The position numbers and the translations under genes were made by a program. From contig NZ_AZRK01000044.1 of the NCBI RefSeq assembly GCF_002895485.1, positions 62,001 to 126,000 on the forward strand: a stretch of 64,000 bases of DNA. The letters are read 5' to 3'. Below the pieces are notes generated by a model that was not told the origin of the DNA, did not search any database, and saw only the letters and a program-made list of their open reading frames with translations. Numbering within the stretch: position 1 is the stretch's first letter; the number at the start of each line of letters is the position of its first letter. Below, in pieces: positions 5,726 through 60,069 of this stretch. The DNA comes from Petrotoga sp. 9PWA.NaAc.5.4 (GTDB taxonomy: Bacteria; Thermotogota; Thermotogae; Petrotogales; Petrotogaceae).

Positions 5726-5801
5726 GCGGATGTAGCTCAATTGGCAGAGCACCAGCTTCCCAAGCTGGGGGTTGCGGGTTCGAATCCCGTCATCCGCTCC
5801 A
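5726..5801 (+). tRNA. tRNA-Gly (anticodon CCC)
   Basis: A 76-nt cloverleaf. The acceptor arm GCGGATG pairs with CATCCGC. The D arm is GCTC/GAGC. The anticodon stem CCAGC/GCTGG encloses loop TTCCCAA, giving anticodon CCC. The T arm carries GGTTCGAAT, and CCA is encoded at 5799-5801. A glycine tRNA with CCC reads GGG codons. A repeat copy begins only about 8 nt after its 3' end. Confidence 0.96.
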
Positions 5802-5809
5802 ATGTATAG

Positions 5810-6014
5810 TAAAGATTTTAAAAATAATAATTTTTTAAGAAGCAAGTTTTGAATTTTAAACGGGTTTAGGGTGGAGTCCTCTTCCTTCTTCTTCAGTAAA
5901 AATACTGAAGAAGTTAAAGAAATAGTTAATTGGTCAAAACCATAATAGCGAAGGTATTCTAAAAAATACTAAGATCAAAATATTTATAAAATCTGAGTGC
6001 CATAATTTCTAAAT
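5810..6014 (+). repeat. dispersed 5'-UTR repeat, full-length copy
   Basis: Full-length but diverged copy between tRNA-Gly and rsmD. The variable hairpin is a perfect 11-bp stem (5888-5898 with 5903-5913, loop AAAA) whose sequence differs from other copies. The G-rich hairpin AGGGT-GGA-GTCCT still pairs by G-U wobbles. The core ends in ATTTCTAAAT. The usual tail follows (AGTATAATAAAAGGAG at 6017-6032), but no start codon follows at the usual distance, and the AGGAG has become part of a terminator stem. Confidence 0.85.
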
Positions 6015-6021
6015 TGAGTAT

Positions 6022-16823: not shown

Positions 16824-18084
16824 ATTTTATTTCTCCCTCCACAAAGGTTTTTTCGACAACCCCTGGTAATCTTTCCCCTAAAAAAGGAGTATTTTTGCCT
16901 TTGGATAAAAGAGAAAGTTCATCAACTACCCAGAATTTTTCAGTATCTAATATTACTAAATCCGCAAAATATCCTTCTTTAATGTCCCCAACATTTTCAA
17001 TGCCAAATATCTTTGCAGGATAATAAGTAACCTTTTTTATCAAATCAATAAAGTTAATATCATATTTTTGAGATAATAATATTAAAGAAGATAATAAGGT
17101 TTCGACTCCTGAGATCCCATAAGGGGCACTTTGAAATTCTACTTGCTTTTCCTTTTTGGAATAAGGTGCGTGGTCAGTCACTATAATGTCTATAACTCCT
17201 TCTTGTAATCCTTTTAAAAGTTCTAATTGATCTTTCTGGGTAGGTAAAGGGGGATTAACCTTTTTATTGGTAGAATAATCTGAAAGATCTTTATCAGTGA
17301 AAAGTAAGTGATTGTGTGTTACTTCTGAAGTAACCATTACTCCTTCTTTTTTTGTTTTTCTTATTAAATCAACAGAAGCCTTTGTAGAAAGATGGGCAAT
17401 ATGAACATGAGTTTTACAATATTTTGCCAGTTCTATATCTCTTGCGACCATTACAGATTCTGCGATATCAGGAATACCTTCTATACCATAATGTTTTGAA
17501 TAATAACCTTCTCTAACATGCCCATTTCTTGATAATTCTTTTACTTCGCAGTGATTTATTATAGGTAAACCAATCTTTTTTGAAAGTTGTAAAGCTTTTA
17601 ACATTATGCAAGAATCTTCGACAGGATTTCCATCATCGCTAAAGGCTATTACTCCTTTCTCACCCATTGCTAACATATCTGTTAATTCTTTTCCTTCACG
17701 ATTTTTTGTTACACTTCCAATTGGAAGAAGTTTTGCTAAATTCAACTTTTCCGATTTTAATTTCAAATATTCTACAAGGAATGGATTGTCTATAGCTGGT
17801 TCCGTATTAGGCATAACTCCCACAAGAGTTATTCCACCATGTAAAGCTGCTTTTAAACCACTTTCAAGATCTTCTCTATGTTCAAATCCTGGTTCTCGAA
17901 GATGTACGTGCATATCAATTATTCCTGGAATCAAAGTTTTACCACCTGTATCGATTATTTTGTCAAATTTTTCTTCTATTTCATCTTCTGCTATTTTAGA
18001 AATAATCTTATCTTCAATTACAATATTTTTGATTCCATTGGTTGAATGAGAGACAACGTTTGCATTTTTTATAAGAGTTTTCAT
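16810..18084 (-). CDS. pyrC: dihydroorotase
   Basis: 424 residues, class I dihydroorotase of the amidohydrolase superfamily. It cyclises carbamoyl aspartate to dihydroorotate. Zinc-site motifs are visible: MHVHLREPG near residues 58-66, NHCEVKE near 180, HIAHLST near 235, and VTDHAPYS near 302. A strong AAGGAGG precedes ATG 18084. A full copy of the dispersed repeat occupies the leader. The first three genes of the pathway (carA, carB, pyrB) and pyrE/pyrF are not in this window, and no PyrR-type attenuator was recognised. Confidence 0.94.
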   Translation of the reverse strand: MKTLIKNANVVSHSTNGIKNIVIEDKIISKIAEDEIEEKFDKIIDTGGKTLIPGIIDMHVHLREPGFEHREDLESGLKAALHGGITLVGVMPNTEPAIDNPFLVEYLKLKSEKLNLAKLLPIGSVTKNREGKELTDMLAMGEKGVIAFSDDGNPVEDSCIMLKALQLSKKIGLPIINHCEVKELSRNGHVREGYYSKHYGIEGIPDIAESVMVARDIELAKYCKTHVHIAHLSTKASVDLIRKTKKEGVMVTSEVTHNHLLFTDKDLSDYSTNKKVNPPLPTQKDQLELLKGLQEGVIDIIVTDHAPYSKKEKQVEFQSAPYGISGVETLLSSLILLSQKYDINFIDLIKKVTYYPAKIFGIENVGDIKEGYFADLVILDTEKFWVVDELSLLSKGKNTPFLGERLPGVVEKTFVEGEIKYDIG

Positions 18085-18115
18085 AAATTACCTCCTTTTA
18101 GTACGATAATACTAT

Positions 18116-18317
18116 CTTTAGAAATTATAAACTTCACATTTTATGGATATTTTAGCGTTTGACTTTTTATAAAATACCTCCAAATTCTAATTTTAAATCG
18201 TTCTCTATTTTTCTTGACTTCTTCGGTACTCATATCGAAAGAATGCAGAGAGTTCTGCGCACTTACTGTTATAAATTCAAAAGCGTATTTTTTAAAATTA
18301 TTATTTCTAAGTCTCTA
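18116..18317 (-). repeat. dispersed 5'-UTR repeat, full-length copy upstream of pyrC
   Basis: Inverted ends are CTTTAGAAAT (18116) and ATTTCTAAG (18304-18312). The G-rich hairpin has changed sequence to GCAGA-ACTC-TCTGC but still pairs, and the variable palindrome is imperfect. The 3' end lies 31 nt before pyrC. This gap carries the usual AGTATTA tail and AAGGAGG. Confidence 0.85.
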
Positions 18318-18360
18318 AATATTTTATCGCAAAAAATTATTTTTTAATCTTACATAAAAT

Positions 18361-20417: not shown

Positions 20418-20452
20418 GTTTTTATTCCTCCTTTTCTCAAATTTATTACTCA

Positions 20453-20644
20453 CTTTAAAAATTCTAAGATTTATATTTTATCAATATTTTAGCGTTTAAC
20501 TTTTTACAAAATACCTCCTCAGTTCTAACCCTCACTAACTCTGAATTTTTTAACTTTTTTGGTACTTGTAGCCAAGGAATGGGGAGAGGGCTCCTTTTAA
20601 ATTCAAAATTCTATTTTTAGAAACGCTTCATTTCTAAAGGCCTT
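20453..20644 (-). repeat. dispersed 5'-UTR repeat between mggA and gpgS
   Basis: Full-length apart from loss of the 5' half of the G-rich hairpin. The variable palindrome here is TTGGTAC-TT-GTAGCCAA with a one-base bulge, a hybrid between the GCTAC and GGTAC classes. The 3' end is 35 nt before GTG 20417. It also contains the motif GAGGAGGTATTTT. Confidence 0.85.
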
Positions 20645-20651
20645 ATAAAAT

Positions 20652-23960: not shown

Positions 23961-23991
23961 TTTTACCCTCCTTAAAACTAAATTTCAACGT

Positions 23992-24195
23992 ATTTAGAAA
24001 TTCTGAAACTCAGATTATATAGATGTTTTGACACTTGGTTTTTCCAAAAATACCTCCTCAACGCTAATTCTTATTTACTATGAATTTTTTAAACTTTTTC
24101 GCTACGTGTAGCGAAAGATAGAGAGGGGCTCCGCCCTGAACCCACTTTAAATTCAAAAGCTTATTTTTCAAAAATCTTTAATTCTAAAGTCCCTA
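23992..24195 (-). repeat. dispersed 5'-UTR repeat, proximal of two copies upstream of the MalF-type gene
   Basis: Full-length. The palindrome TTTCGCTAC-GT-GTAGCGAAA is perfect, and the G-rich hairpin is GGGC-GGA-GCCC. The 3' end lies 31 nt before ATG 23960. Confidence 0.9.
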
Positions 24196-24213
24196 AAATT
24201 CTTTCTATACCCA

Positions 24214-24397
24214 CTTTAGAAATTCCAAAATCCTTATTATATATATGTTTTAGAATCGATTTTTTTACAAAATACCTCCTCAGTTCTAATCTTCACTAAT
24301 TCTGAATTTTTTTAACTTTTTCGCTACGTGTAGCGAAAGAGAGGGGAGGGCTCCGCCCTGGACCCATTTTTCGAAAATTATCATTTCTAAAATCCTT
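24214..24397 (-). repeat. dispersed 5'-UTR repeat, distal of two copies
   Basis: Same palindrome and G-rich hairpin as the adjacent copy. It lacks about 20 bp around the usual AAGCTTTTGAATTT segment near its 5' end. Its 3' tail joins the 5' TAGGGAC end of the next copy after about 18 nt. Confidence 0.9.
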
Positions 24398-24460
24398 AAG
24401 TAAAGTTTGCTGTTTTTCGAAAATAGAATTCGTTTCTTTTACCAATATTTCTCATTATTA

Positions 24461-26070: not shown

Positions 26071-26153
26071 TAAGGATTTTAGAAATGAGACGTTTCTAAA
26101 AATAGAATTTTGAATTTAAAAGGAGTTCAGGGTAGATTTTGGAATTTCTAAAG
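26071..26153 (+). repeat. dispersed 5'-UTR repeat, short form
   Basis: 83 bp with both inverted ends (TTTTAGAAATGA and ATTTCTAAAG) but neither central hairpin. The internal join TTTAAAAGGAGTTCAGGG is shared with the copy at 42089. The 3' end lies 33 nt before ATG 26187. Confidence 0.8.
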
Positions 26154-26186
26154 TAAGTATAATAATTATTTACAGGAGGTATCAAT

Positions 26187-39948: not shown

Positions 39949-39982
39949 AACTTTATCCCTCCTTTTTTTATTTTAATATCCA

Positions 39983-40186
39983 CTTTATAAATCCCAAAAT
40001 CCTCATTATATGTATATTTTAGCGTTGATTTTTTACAAAACACCTACATGCATCTAGTCCTTAATAATTCCCAATTTATTTACCTTTTTTGGTACTTGTA
40101 GCCAAGCAAGGGGGAAAGGGCTGTACCCTGGACCCATTTTAAATCAAATGCTTATTTTCTAAAAATTATCATTTCTAAAGTCCCTA
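39983..40186 (-). repeat. dispersed 5'-UTR repeat upstream of the PEBP gene
   Basis: Full-length. The palindrome is TTGGTAC-TT-GTAGCCAAG with one bulge, and the G-rich hairpin is AGGGT-ACA-GCCCT with a G-U pair. The 3' end lies 34 nt before ATG 39948. The remaining part of this 450-bp gap holds a repeat remnant and AT-rich sequence. Confidence 0.88.
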
Positions 40187-40815: not shown

Positions 40816-40850
40816 AGTTTTAACCTCCTTAAAACTCTTAGTTTTACTTA

Positions 40851-41056
40851 CTTTAGAAATTATGAAACTCTGGTTCTATAAATGTTTTGAATCTTAGTTT
40901 TTTCAAAAATACCTTCTCCTTCTAACCCTTACTAATTCTTAATTTCTTTAACTTTTTCGCTACGTGTAGCTAAGGAGAGAGGAGAGGGCTTCGCCCTGGA
41001 CCCATTTTTAAATTCAAAAGCTTATTTTTAGAAAATTTTCATTTCTAAAGTCCCTA
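40851..41056 (-). repeat. dispersed 5'-UTR repeat, proximal of a tandem pair
   Basis: Full-length. The palindrome is TTCGCTAC-GT-GTAGCTAA, and the G-rich hairpin is AGGGC-GAA-GCCCT. The 3' end is 35 nt before TTG 40815. The flank AACTCTTAGTTTTACT beside it is repeated beside the second copy 222 bp away. Confidence 0.9.
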
Positions 41057-41073
41057 ACTCTTAGTTTTACTCA

Positions 41074-41276
41074 TTTTAAAAACTATGAAACTCCGATTTT
41101 ATAAATGTTTTGAACCTTAGTTTTTCAAAAATACCTTCTCAACTCTAATCCTCACAAGATATGAGTTTCTTTAGCTTTTCGGTACTTGTAGCCAGAAAAG
41201 GGGGAGAGAGCTCTGCCCTAAATCCATTTAAATTCAAAACATTATTTTTTAAGATTCTTCATTTCTAAACTCCATA
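41074..41276 (-). repeat. dispersed 5'-UTR repeat, distal of a tandem pair
   Basis: Full-length. The palindrome is CTTTTCGGTAC-TT-GTAGCCAGAAAAG, and the G-rich hairpin is AGGGC-AGA-GCTCT with a G-U pair. Shared flanks show that it arose with its neighbour by tandem duplication. Confidence 0.88.
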
Positions 41277-42088: not shown

Positions 42089-42171
42089 TAGGCACTTTAG
42101 AAATGAGAATTTTCTAAAAATAAGCATTTGAATTTAAAAGGAGTTAAGAGTAGATTTTGGGATTTCTAAAG
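42089..42171 (+). repeat. dispersed 5'-UTR repeat, short form
   Basis: 83 bp with both inverted ends and the short-form junction TTTAAAAGGAGTTAAGAG, closely matching the copy at 26071. The 3' end lies 31 nt before ATG 42203. In this 308-bp divergent gap a TATAAT at 42008-42013 faces right; its -35 is poor. Confidence 0.8.
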
Positions 42172-42202
42172 GAAGTGTTTTTATTTGAAAAGGAGGCTTA
42201 AT

Positions 42203-47251: not shown

Positions 47252-47359
47252 GTAATAATTTTTGAAAATATGGAACGGGTCTTTAGAGCACAGTTCCTCC
47301 TTTTTTTTGCTCGAAGTATTGACCAAGTTAAAAAAAAATGATAGTTAGTAAGTATTAGA
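47252..47359 (+). repeat. degenerate copy of the dispersed repeat
   Basis: Only faint landmarks remain: AACGGGTC, an AGAGCACAGTTCCTCC stretch at the place of the G-rich hairpin, then CCAAGTTAAA. A separate palindrome ATGCGTATGTACGCAT lies just upstream (47234-47249). Confidence 0.4.
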
Positions 47360-47535
47360 TAGAAACTTTAAAAATGAGGATTTTTGAAAATAAGCATTTG
47401 ACTTTAAACGGGTCCAGGGCACAGCCCTCTCCCCATTGCTTGGCTACATGTAGCGAAAAAGTTAAAGAAATTCATATTTTGTGAAGATTAGGGTGAAAGA
47501 GGTGCTTTATAAAAAATTTAACGTTAAAACATATA
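47360..47535 (+). repeat. dispersed 5'-UTR repeat, first of two tandem copies
   Basis: Nearly full-length but without its own 3' CTAAAG end. It runs directly into the 5' TAGGGAC of the next copy. The palindrome TTGGCTAC-AT-GTAGCGAA has one mismatch, and the G-rich hairpin is AGGGC-ACA-GCCCT. Confidence 0.85.
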
Positions 47536-47739
47536 TAGGGACTTTAAAAATGAGAAATTTCTAAAAATAAGTATTTAACTTTAAAATGGGTCCAGGGCGG
47601 AGCCCTCCCCCCTTTCCTTGGTAAAAGTACCGAAAAACTAAAGAAATTAAGGATTAGGGAGTATTAGAGCTGATGGGGTATTTTGTAAAAAAATCGAATC
47701 TAAAAAATACATATAATAAGGATTTTGTAATTTCTAAAG
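47536..47739 (+). repeat. dispersed 5'-UTR repeat, second of two tandem copies
   Basis: Full-length with both ends. The palindrome is of the GGTA/TACC class (TTGGTA-AAAG-TACCGAA), and the G-rich hairpin is AGGGC-GGA-GCCCT. The tail AGTATTAAATAATTAG leads straight into AGGAGG, 32 nt before ATG 47772. Confidence 0.9.
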
Positions 47740-47771
47740 CGAGTATTAAATAATTAGTAGGAGGATTGCGA

Positions 47772-50786: not shown

Positions 50787-51016
50787 TGAGTTTAGATATT
50801 AATTTTGATAAAATCTTAAAAAAAGTGAGATTCAAGTATGCTGTTCCCATCATAGCTGCAAAAAGAGCAGAAGCGTTGAGGAATTTAGATGAATTGAACG
50901 GTATAGAGGAAAGAAAAGATTATGTCTCAATAGCTTTAAAAGAATTAGAAAGTGGGAAAATAACCGTTAAAAATCTTTCAAAACTTGAAAATGATGCAAA
51001 AATATTAGAAGACTAA
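50786..51016 (+). CDS. rpoZ: RNA polymerase omega subunit
   Basis: 76 residues. VPIIAAKRAEALR near residues 21-33 and ALKELESGKI near 50 match omega. It helps assemble beta-prime. Position directly after gmk is the usual one. A full repeat copy starts at its stop codon. Confidence 0.88.
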   Translation: MSLDINFDKILKKVRFKYAVPIIAAKRAEALRNLDELNGIEERKDYVSIALKELESGKITVKNLSKLENDAKILED

Positions 51017-51214
51017 AAAAACGGAGATTTTTTTGAAAATAAGCTTTTGAATTTAAAATGGGTCCAGGGCGGAGCCCTCTCACCATCTCCTTAGCTACGC
51101 GTAGCGAAAAGTTAAAGAAATAGTCAGTTGGTCAAAATTAGAGTAGTGAAGGTATTTTTTGAAAAAACTAAACGTTAAAACATTTACAAAATCTGAGTTT
51201 TGTAATTTCTAAAG
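51014..51214 (+). repeat. dispersed 5'-UTR repeat between rpoZ and serS
   Basis: Full-length except for a worn 5' end. The palindrome is TTAGCTAC-GC-GTAGCGAA, and the G-rich hairpin is AGGGC-GGA-GCCCT. The 3' half shares GGTCAAAATTAGAG-type sequence with the copies at 5810 and 57472. The 3' end is 33 nt before serS. Confidence 0.88.
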
Positions 51215-51247
51215 TGGGCAAAAGAAATGTATTGGGGAGGAAACTAA

Positions 51248-57471: not shown

Positions 57472-57600
57472 TAGGTACTTTAGAAATGATAATCTTCAGA
57501 AAGTAAGGTTTTGAATTTAAAATTGGTCTATGACGGAGACCTCCCCTATTTTGGTACAAGTACCGAAGAGCTAAAGAAATAAACAATTGGTCGAAATTAG
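57472..57600 (+). repeat. dispersed 5'-UTR repeat, 3'-truncated, first of three before flgE
   Basis: 5' half only. The palindrome is TTGGTAC-AA-GTACCGAA, and the G-rich hairpin is replaced by GGTCT-ATGACGG-AGACC, which still pairs. The 5' segment matches the third copy of this cluster almost base for base. A stray 3' end (CAAAATTTCTGAATAAG) lies just upstream at 57442. Confidence 0.85.
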
Positions 57601-57718
57601 ATAAAAACTTTAAAATGGAGAATTTTTTAAAAATAATATTTTGATTTTAAAAGCGGGTCCAGGGCGGAGCCCTTCTTGCCTTTTTCGGTACAAGTACCGA
57701 AAAGTTAAAAAATTAAGA
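57601..57718 (+). repeat. dispersed 5'-UTR repeat, 3'-truncated, second of three before flgE
   Basis: 5' half only. The palindrome TTTTCGGTAC-AA-GTACCGAAAA (57682-57703) is perfect over 10 bp, and the G-rich hairpin is AGGGC-GGA-GCCCT. Confidence 0.85.
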
Positions 57719-57924
57719 TAGGTACCTTAGAAAAGATAATCTTCGGAAAGTAAGGTTTTGGATTTAAAATGGGTCTATGACGGAGACCTCCCCTTCTTTT
57801 TTTGCTACACGTAGCGAAAAGGTTAAAGAAATTAGGAATTAATGAGGATTAGAAGTCGGGAGATATTTTTGAATGAATTTAAGACTAAAATATTTACAAA
57901 ACCTAAGTTTCAAAATTTCTAAAG
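57719..57924 (+). repeat. dispersed 5'-UTR repeat, full-length, third of three before flgE
   Basis: The palindrome is TTTGCTAC-AC-GTAGCGAA, and the G-rich hairpin is GGTCT-ATGACGG-AGACC, as in the first copy. The 3' end is 33 nt before ATG 57958. Confidence 0.9.
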
Positions 57925-57957
57925 TGAATCTAGAAAATAAGATAGGAGGAATATAAA

Positions 57958-60069
57958 ATGCTGAGGTCAATGTATTCCGGTATAACAGGATTAAGAAACT
58001 TTCAAGATCAACTCGATGTTGTAGCCAACAACATTGCCAATGTAAATACAATAGGCTTCAAAGGTTCAAGGGTTACTTTCCAAACTACTTTGTTTCAAAC
58101 TCTCAACGCTGGAAATGCTCCTCAAAACATGTTGGGAGGAACGAATCCTATGCAAATTGGTTTAGGTTCAAGAATAGCTTCTATCGATCAAATCATGACT
58201 CAAGGGTCTCCTATGTCTACTGGTAAAGCTACAGATATGATGATACAAGGAGAAGGATTCTTTATCCTTTCGGATGGCGTTGGTCAATATTATACAAGAG
58301 CTGGCAATTTCACACGAGATTACAATGGTTTTTTTGTGGATCCTGCATCAGGAATGAAATTACAAGGTTGGACAGCGCGATTAACTCAAGACGGACAAAG
58401 AGTTGTAGATACGAACGATCCTATAGGAGATATACAAATATCAGCAGGACAAGTATTACCTGCAAAACAAACATCTTTTGTAAGACTTGCACACAATCTA
58501 AACGCAGCTGCAGGTCTTCAGGATACAACAATAGTAGTAAAAAGTGCTTTAGGTGAGAATGTACCTGTAAGATTTAGTTTCAAAAGAGACTTAACTAATT
58601 TAAATCAAAATGCCTACATATGGGAAGCTAAGATTTTAGGATCTGATTTTAACTTTTCTGTTTTTGATTCAACTTTGGGGTCTCTTACTTCTTCAAATAC
58701 AATGAATGGAAGAGTTGTGTTAGATGATAATGGAAATGTAATCAGTTGGGTAAATTATGATGCAACAGATCAGGCTTTATCTGATACAAAAATATCGATT
58801 TTTGATGTGAATGGAAATGTGGTAGGTGCCAATGGCGAGACTGTTACTGTTACAACTAATGCAGGTAATGTCACACTTACAGGGAGTATAAGAGTGACAA
58901 ATAACATAACCGGTGAGCAAGTGGCGTATGATCCAGAAAATATTGAAATTGTTTTTGATGGTAATGGTCAAGTTACATTTAGCTTAACTGGTTCAGATGG
59001 GACTCCACTAAGTTTTGATGAGACTTTTGATAATACTGTAGGGGGCTTTAACAATCTGTTATCTTCAGGTATCACAGATGGTGATTACACCTTAACCGGT
59101 CTAAGATTAATTGGTGGTGATTCAGGCGATACAATCAATACTGGTACTTACAATGACTTAAAATCTATTAGAGAAGTCATTCAACCACCATCTGGAGGTT
59201 CGCTAAGGCTTACTGATTTGAATAATCCAACAAACTTTGCTCAAGCAGAATATATTAATCCTAAAGTTTCGACCTCTACGATTGTGTACGATTCTTTAGG
59301 AAATGCGTATAATATTTATTTGAAATTTACAAAGATCGATGCTAATACATGGCATTGGAAAGCTGAGTTAGCAGATGGTACTCCTGTTTATAAAACCACA
59401 GTAGAAGGTCAAATGCTTAATGATCCAGCTGAAGGTGTTATCGCATTTGATGCAAACGGAAATATTGCCGCTACTCAGTGGAGAATAGATTCCACAACTG
59501 GAAATATAGACCAAACGGTTGGAGATGGGAACGACGGATCTGCAGGTTTTTGGTTTGATCCGGCACAAGCTGGAGCGGCTTTAAACCCGGCTGTAAATCC
59601 CGCTTCAGCTGCAGCAGCAGGACCTGTTTTGGTATCTATAAATTTTCAAGAAGTATCTCAATTTGCAGCTCCAAATTCAATAGCAGTTACTGAACAAAAT
59701 GGAAATGCCCAAGGGACACTTGAATCTTTTGCAATAAATACTAATGGCCAAATTATAGGAACTTTTACCAACGGTTTAACTTCAATATTAGGACAAGTTG
59801 CTTTGGCAACTTTCAACAATCCCGAAGGTTTATTAGCTGTTGGAAATTCTATGTATGCTATGAGTTCAAATAGTGGACTACCCCAAATAGGAGTTTCAGG
59901 AGTAGGTGGAAGAGGCACTATAAATCCTGGTGCTCTTGAAATGTCTAATGTTGATCTCGCCGAAGAATTTACAAATATGATAATAGCTCAAAGAGGGTTT
60001 CAAGCTAATTCAAGGAGTATAACAACAGCCGATCAAATTTTGAACGAGCTTGTTAATATAAAGAGATAA
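57958..60069 (+). CDS. flgE: flagellar hook protein
   Basis: 703 residues, long for FlgE (about 400 in E. coli); the extra length lies in central Gly/Asn/Thr-rich domains. The N-terminal rod-type motif MLRSMYSGITGLRNFQDQLDVVANNIANVNT (landmark 1-31) and the C-terminal SNVDLAEEFTNMIIAQRGFQANSRSITTADQ region are diagnostic. It builds the hook. TAGGAGGA precedes ATG 57958. The gap to flgD holds three repeat copies, the longest break within this operon. Confidence 0.95.
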   Translation: MLRSMYSGITGLRNFQDQLDVVANNIANVNTIGFKGSRVTFQTTLFQTLNAGNAPQNMLGGTNPMQIGLGSRIASIDQIMTQGSPMSTGKATDMMIQGEGFFILSDGVGQYYTRAGNFTRDYNGFFVDPASGMKLQGWTARLTQDGQRVVDTNDPIGDIQISAGQVLPAKQTSFVRLAHNLNAAAGLQDTTIVVKSALGENVPVRFSFKRDLTNLNQNAYIWEAKILGSDFNFSVFDSTLGSLTSSNTMNGRVVLDDNGNVISWVNYDATDQALSDTKISIFDVNGNVVGANGETVTVTTNAGNVTLTGSIRVTNNITGEQVAYDPENIEIVFDGNGQVTFSLTGSDGTPLSFDETFDNTVGGFNNLLSSGITDGDYTLTGLRLIGGDSGDTINTGTYNDLKSIREVIQPPSGGSLRLTDLNNPTNFAQAEYINPKVSTSTIVYDSLGNAYNIYLKFTKIDANTWHWKAELADGTPVYKTTVEGQMLNDPAEGVIAFDANGNIAATQWRIDSTTGNIDQTVGDGNDGSAGFWFDPAQAGAALNPAVNPASAAAAGPVLVSINFQEVSQFAAPNSIAVTEQNGNAQGTLESFAINTNGQIIGTFTNGLTSILGQVALATFNNPEGLLAVGNSMYAMSSNSGLPQIGVSGVGGRGTINPGALEMSNVDLAEEFTNMIIAQRGFQANSRSITTADQILNELVNIKR

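Follow-up and report, generated by a model that had tools for sequence, protein, structure and literature searches.

MITEAba12 and ISAba12 represent a described case of a MITE with a co-resident IS parent (PMC6382973). The repeat reported here, from a 64-kb stretch of Petrotoga DNA (the window, meaning that whole stretch), resembles MITEAba12 in being short and AT-rich, with imperfect terminal inverted repeats of about 16 bp, 9-bp target site duplications (TSDs) and similarity to an IS only at the ends. MITEAba12, however, shows no orientation preference (PMC6382973), whereas the Petrotoga repeat has a near-absolute orientation, is anchored to Shine-Dalgarno sites and reaches far more copies. 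The BOX elements of Streptococcus pneumoniae (PMC3049150) are similarly modular, with a variable number of modules, intergenic, hairpin-forming and MITE-like; they are over-represented between convergent genes (PMC3049150, Table 1), whereas the Petrotoga repeat is nearly absent there and is located at ribosome-binding sites. ERIC, Correia/NEMIS and similar transcribed MITEs, compared by description, are likewise short operon repeats with conserved hairpins (background of PMC3049150 and PMC3733652), and no Shine-Dalgarno-anchored position is reported for them in the papers found. An IS or MITE that targets Shine-Dalgarno sites was not found in the open-access literature, so that "not found" is not to be read as "not known".

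The first-pass annotation of this DNA concentrated on a hairpin of the repeat; the main fact about the hairpin copies, which it missed, is their nature as mobile elements that precede Shine-Dalgarno sites. Full copies are about 212 bp long, from TAnnnACTTTAGAAAT to ATTTCTAAAGnnnnTA, with imperfect terminal inverted repeats (TAnnnACTTTAGAAAT) at both ends, and are non-coding, the repeat alignment having no conserved ORF. They consist of an A and a B module, and the latter contains its own Shine-Dalgarno-like GGAGG at about model position 138 (consensus GGAGGTATTTT), exact in 52 of 134 full copies. Copies are found singly, in tandem, in A-A-A-B arrays or as short derivatives that keep both ends. 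Counted in stretches that make up about 55% of the host genome, the repeat gives 435 matches in 1.226 Mb (5.1% of the DNA), which leads to an estimate of ~790 copies for the whole genome (2.22 Mb); older copies have diverged to 75–85% identity.

Direct repeats scoring at least 9 flank 38% of the copies compared with 4% of shuffled flanks, and the target duplications measure ~9 bp. An exact empty site was also found: genome G009 reads TTAATATTAG / TAAGGACTTTAG..CTAAAGTGAGTA / TAATATTAG / TACGAGGAGG where the host (G000) reads TTAATATTAATACGAGGAGG, in a block that is 96% identical between the two, so that the element is present in G009 only, with the 9-bp TAATATTAG on both sides. This block (G000:C45 and G009:C10; loci L164 and L163) extends over more than 2 kb between two genera whose usual identity is 72–80%, and it would represent a recent horizontal transfer. 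A second presence/absence case (G003 L066:8912-9106 compared with G009) supports insertion as well, with flanks of about 78% identity that blur the exact site; the Petrotoga-like locus L083 was rejected as an empty site because its flanks are multi-copy and not clean. Taken as a whole, the evidence makes it very probable that an IS1182-like DDE IS, assigned as the parent from matching ends, moves the repeat, which would itself be a non-autonomous mobile element (MITE). The repeat does share with REP sequences an extragenic location, palindromes and a high copy number, and Defluviitoga tunisiensis is among the Thermotogota listed with many REP-like palindromes (PMC12306157). Nevertheless, a REP/REPIN-type palindrome family is highly improbable, as it would be expected to have a RAYT (IS200/IS605-like) and no TSD, whereas the Petrotoga repeat has a DDE partner and duplicates 9 bp of its target, and its terminal inverted repeats are long.

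An iterative profile search gave 20 matches in the window, all belonging to one family. The full-length element at 57719..57930 (plus strand; profile match 57724-57924, E 2e-46), with A and B modules and both terminal inverted repeats, lies directly 5' of the Shine-Dalgarno of a FlgE-like gene at 57958 (3' flank TGAATCTAGAAAATAAGATAGGAGG), and its hairpin 2, read from the sequence at 57804..57815 (plus), has the GCTAC/GTAGC form. Two tandem A modules on the same strand, one from the left end to just beyond hairpin 2 at 57472..57601 (profile match 57477-57601, model 1-130) and a second at 57602..57717 (57607-57717, model 1-113), contain hairpin 2 in the GGTAC/GTACC form (57553..57564 and 57687..57698, both plus, also from the sequence). 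On the minus strand, full-length copies are located at 18110..18318 (profile match 18310-18116), upstream of a dihydroorotase-like gene that ends at 18084; at 20447..20645 (20639-20453); as a tandem pair before an ABC permease gene, the first at 24208..24398 (24391-24214) and the second at 23986..24195 (24190-23993), both of the GCTAC/GTAGC form; at 39977..40186 (39983-40181), with the target repeat TATTAAAATAA on both sides; and at 40845..41056, with the flanking direct repeat AGTAAAACTAAGAGTT, in tandem with the copy at 41069..41276 (41269-41075). The copies at 20447..20645 and 39977..40186 share the bulged hybrid hairpin GGCTACAAGTACC. All the hairpin forms that the first-pass annotation had listed for these copies, the two perfect ones and the bulged hybrid, are thus present. 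The plus strand also harbors two short, internally deleted derivatives, 26073..26165, which retains the left and right ends and no hairpin 2, and 42089..42183 (left-end matches 26078-26136 and 42094-42152, right ends read in the sequence); an array at 47263..47745 before a NifS-like gene, composed of a partial A, an A with a partial B and a full copy (47263-47359, 47365-47537 and 47541-47739); and a full-length copy at 51014..51220 (51020-51214; 3' flank ..TTGGGGAGGAAACTAAATG) before serS (51248). Between 20652 and 25803 the window also contains a mannosylglucosylglycerate synthase-like gene next to sugar ABC transporter genes.

The search for a parent required matching ends together with matching target duplications; ends alone gave 1296 chance pairs. 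It led to a 1624-bp IS in the host genome (L109:420-2043) that shares its ends and TSD with the MITE and is followed by AGGAGG 14 nt on. Its transposase is intact (417 aa), with DUF772 and DDE_Tnp_1 above the Pfam cut-offs, and the closest NCBIfam model is IS1182 at 55.9 bits (3.5e-15), far under the curated cut-off of 270; judged by these matches, the putative parent is IS1182-like and is not called a member of the IS1182 family. That family, including IS1272, has a transposase with the same two domains (PMC5678879), but IS1272 replaces stem-loop targets without TSDs (PMC5678879), whereas the Petrotoga IS shows TSDs and a target in the Shine-Dalgarno region. The interior of the MITE is not derived from the IS, the match being confined to the ends. 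At locus L175 (G000:C2:49163-53413) the IS immediately follows a MITE copy, both at one Shine-Dalgarno, as would result from successive insertions into a single target.

The position of the copies with respect to genes is regular. The next gene is co-oriented with the element in 163 of the 169 intergenic matches that have a called neighbour, and four of the six exceptions are followed by, or chained to, a Shine-Dalgarno and start codon of an uncalled ORF; co-directional genes flank 131 matches, and convergent genes only 2. Among 178 non-tandem 3' ends, 157 have an AGGAGG-like Shine-Dalgarno that begins 18–24 nt from the conserved CTAAAG, with a mode of 20 (about 14 nt from the right end of the element to AGGAGG), and 11 are without a Shine-Dalgarno. 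The mode is identical to that of the host in genera g4 and g3, and the spacing varies by a few nt, which is looser than expected from a pure DNA motif. Both the MITE and the IS are inserted with a duplication of about 9 bp, in one orientation and with the right end about 14 nt before AGGAGG, so that copies accumulate directly before ribosome-binding sites, in most cases with co-directional genes on either side. We infer that the transposition complex itself uses the Shine-Dalgarno region as its oriented target, because selection alone would not fix the distance within about 3 nt.

It could be argued instead that insertion is random and that selection retains only sense copies just upstream of genes, for instance as a useful leader RNA. 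Old diverged copies (75–85% identical) have indeed been retained together with their hairpins, and most copies are found inside operons. This possibility appears unlikely, since selection on a leader does not need a Shine-Dalgarno distance fixed to about 3 nt and since almost no copies are found between convergent genes, where insertions should do no harm. Additionally, two copies target the internal GGAGG of another copy (one of them at L060:2764), and the window copy at 5810..6019 adjoins the AAAGGAG of a terminator-like hairpin with no obvious gene start. The same position and orientation also recur with the ~1.6-kb IS, its transposase antisense, in many genera. Several genera of the family, a Fervidobacterium MAG and another family of the phylum (transposase 37% identical) harbor relatives of this IS, and at ~20 such IS loci the end on the 5' side of the transposase lies 11–19 nt before AGGAGG or a close variant, followed by a gene to which the transposase is antisense at all of them. 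A larger IS, with different ends and in different hosts, obeys the same targeting rule, which suggests that the transposition machinery, rather than later selection, sets the position; from comparative sequence evidence, this is the best argument for targeting by the machinery.

If it is the transposase that picks Shine-Dalgarno sites in one orientation, safe targeting would be built into this mobile element, which would land next to genes and leave them unbroken while preceding hundreds of them at the same time. How a DDE transposase chooses its target would then be open to direct testing, and a programmable "insert before the gene" tool might be possible. It would also raise the question of how translation proceeds normally in a genome where a sizeable fraction of the operon junctions have the same hairpin-bearing leader.

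A pyrimidine-only tract of about 9–19 nt is found between hairpins 1 and 2 (e.g., 57660-57690); its sequence varies but stays C/T. The tract is complementary to AGGAGG and could, according to folding predictions, pair with the Shine-Dalgarno: in 99 analysed copies with a tract of 9–19 nt, the predicted pairing of the Shine-Dalgarno with the tract is 0.20, and replacing the tract raises the predicted openness of the Shine-Dalgarno from 0.36 to 0.48. The element might accordingly be regarded as a cis-regulatory RNA (riboswitch, attenuator or translational switch) whose tract masks the Shine-Dalgarno. We consider this rather unlikely, as the repeat has no match in Rfam at the gathering score (a tRNA was the only known RNA family found in the window), the genes behind the copies are functionally unrelated, the openness of the Shine-Dalgarno is equal in native and dinucleotide-shuffled elements, and hundreds of copies flanked by target duplications indicate, in the first place, a mobile element. 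The idea that the element folds on itself to insulate the Shine-Dalgarno was also discarded, the unpaired fraction being 0.361 in native and 0.359 in shuffled elements. More speculatively, and with a small chance of being right, a branch of Thermotogota DDE ISs might home on translation initiation sites, perhaps through ribosome-bound or looped mRNA instead of a DNA motif alone, with the consequence that hundreds of genes would share a hairpin and anti-Shine-Dalgarno leader acting as translational control.

Covariation was analysed in an alignment of 399 distinct A modules from three genera, with a home-made null (R-scape-like but not R-scape) in which each column's own number of changes is randomly placed on the tree. 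Over the 399 copies the variable pair of hairpin 2 (columns 81/90) is mainly GC (142), CG (76), CC (61), TG (23) or GT (21), with G = 128 against a null mean of 18 (a value reached in 1 of 1000 simulations). The pairs 84/87, 82/89 and 76/95 are weaker (about 0.007–0.016), and the remaining pairs are unremarkable. Hairpin 1 (GGGC GGA GCCC) shows weak covariation, with two pairs at about 0.035; a fixed protein-binding motif is not claimed for it because its loop varies (GGA, GAA or ACA). When arm alleles were compared on a tree that excluded the hairpin columns, the left arms GG, GC and G-GC were associated with right arms C/G in 142/9, 13/66 and 48/10 copies, respectively, giving G = 157, with the null reaching at most 68 (none of 1000 simulations as high), and non-pairing combinations amount to 7.6% of the copies where 37% are expected. 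In the C.C class, 48 of 61 copies have an extra G with which GG-c-TAC can form a bulged pairing with GTACC. We therefore regard base pairing of hairpin 2 as conserved, and the genome-wide covariation test that the first-pass annotation had proposed gave a significant result under our own tree-aware null.

On the other hand, the strongest linkage, at the top of 7875 column pairs, is between the unpaired loop base 86 and the right-arm base 90 (G = 290). Since this exceeds the linkage of the pair 81/90, the arms change partly in blocks, whether through shared descent or gene conversion, and the 27 switches inferred from GG/CC to GC/GC-type give an upper estimate for the number of independent events. 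The co-change of the right arm with an unpaired base speaks for paired changes that arose by template switching in the palindrome, or by gene conversion that spread a small number of founder haplotypes, for which the repeated copies give scope; the derived hairpin forms are, moreover, largely restricted to one genome. Such an origin, with no selection on pairing, is a real possibility, somewhat short of an even chance. Against it, incompatible combinations are depleted (GG with GTAGC in 9 copies against 45 expected, and GC with GTACC lacking the rescuing G in 13 against 56), the three left-arm alleles sort with right arms able to pair with them, and plain copying of GCTACA predicts TGTAGC, whereas CGTAGC is the common form.

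The first-pass annotation had taken the compensatory changes as the mark of selected RNA or cruciform structure; pairing is indeed kept as the sequence changes, but covariation does not prove a selected RNA. Departures to GU (296) and AC (239) show no consistent preference for the sense strand, and in the wobble-bias test, once scaled to unpaired columns, the C>T rate and the A>G rate give opposite answers. We think that hairpin pairing is a constraint on the element, most likely because the element is read through within operon mRNA; a DNA-level role of the hairpin during transposition is almost equally likely, and the data fit either.

The two perfect forms of hairpin 2 had been called interchangeable, which fits the host genome but not the sister genus g4, where nearly all copies are GGTAC/GTACC (31 of about 50); compared with this form, the others look derived. 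The bulged hybrids mostly represent the third left-arm allele, GGCTAC, which still pairs with the right arm by bulging one C. Finally, the full-length copy at 5810..6019 (plus; profile match 5817-6013, 3' flank TGAGTATAATAAAAGGAGCCAAAGCTCCTTTTATT) does carry the reported 11-bp stem as its hairpin 2 (CTTCTTCAGTA/TACTGAAGAAG, 5888-5913), but this is not unrelated to the others, as had been claimed: it aligns to the same palindrome, with further paired changes from G-C to A-T (columns 80/91) and from C.A to C-G (76/95). Along 5726-6020 of the window, a tRNA gene is followed by this copy and then by the terminator-like hairpin AAAAGGAGCCAAAGCTCCTTTTATT, whose AAAGGAG the copy adjoins.
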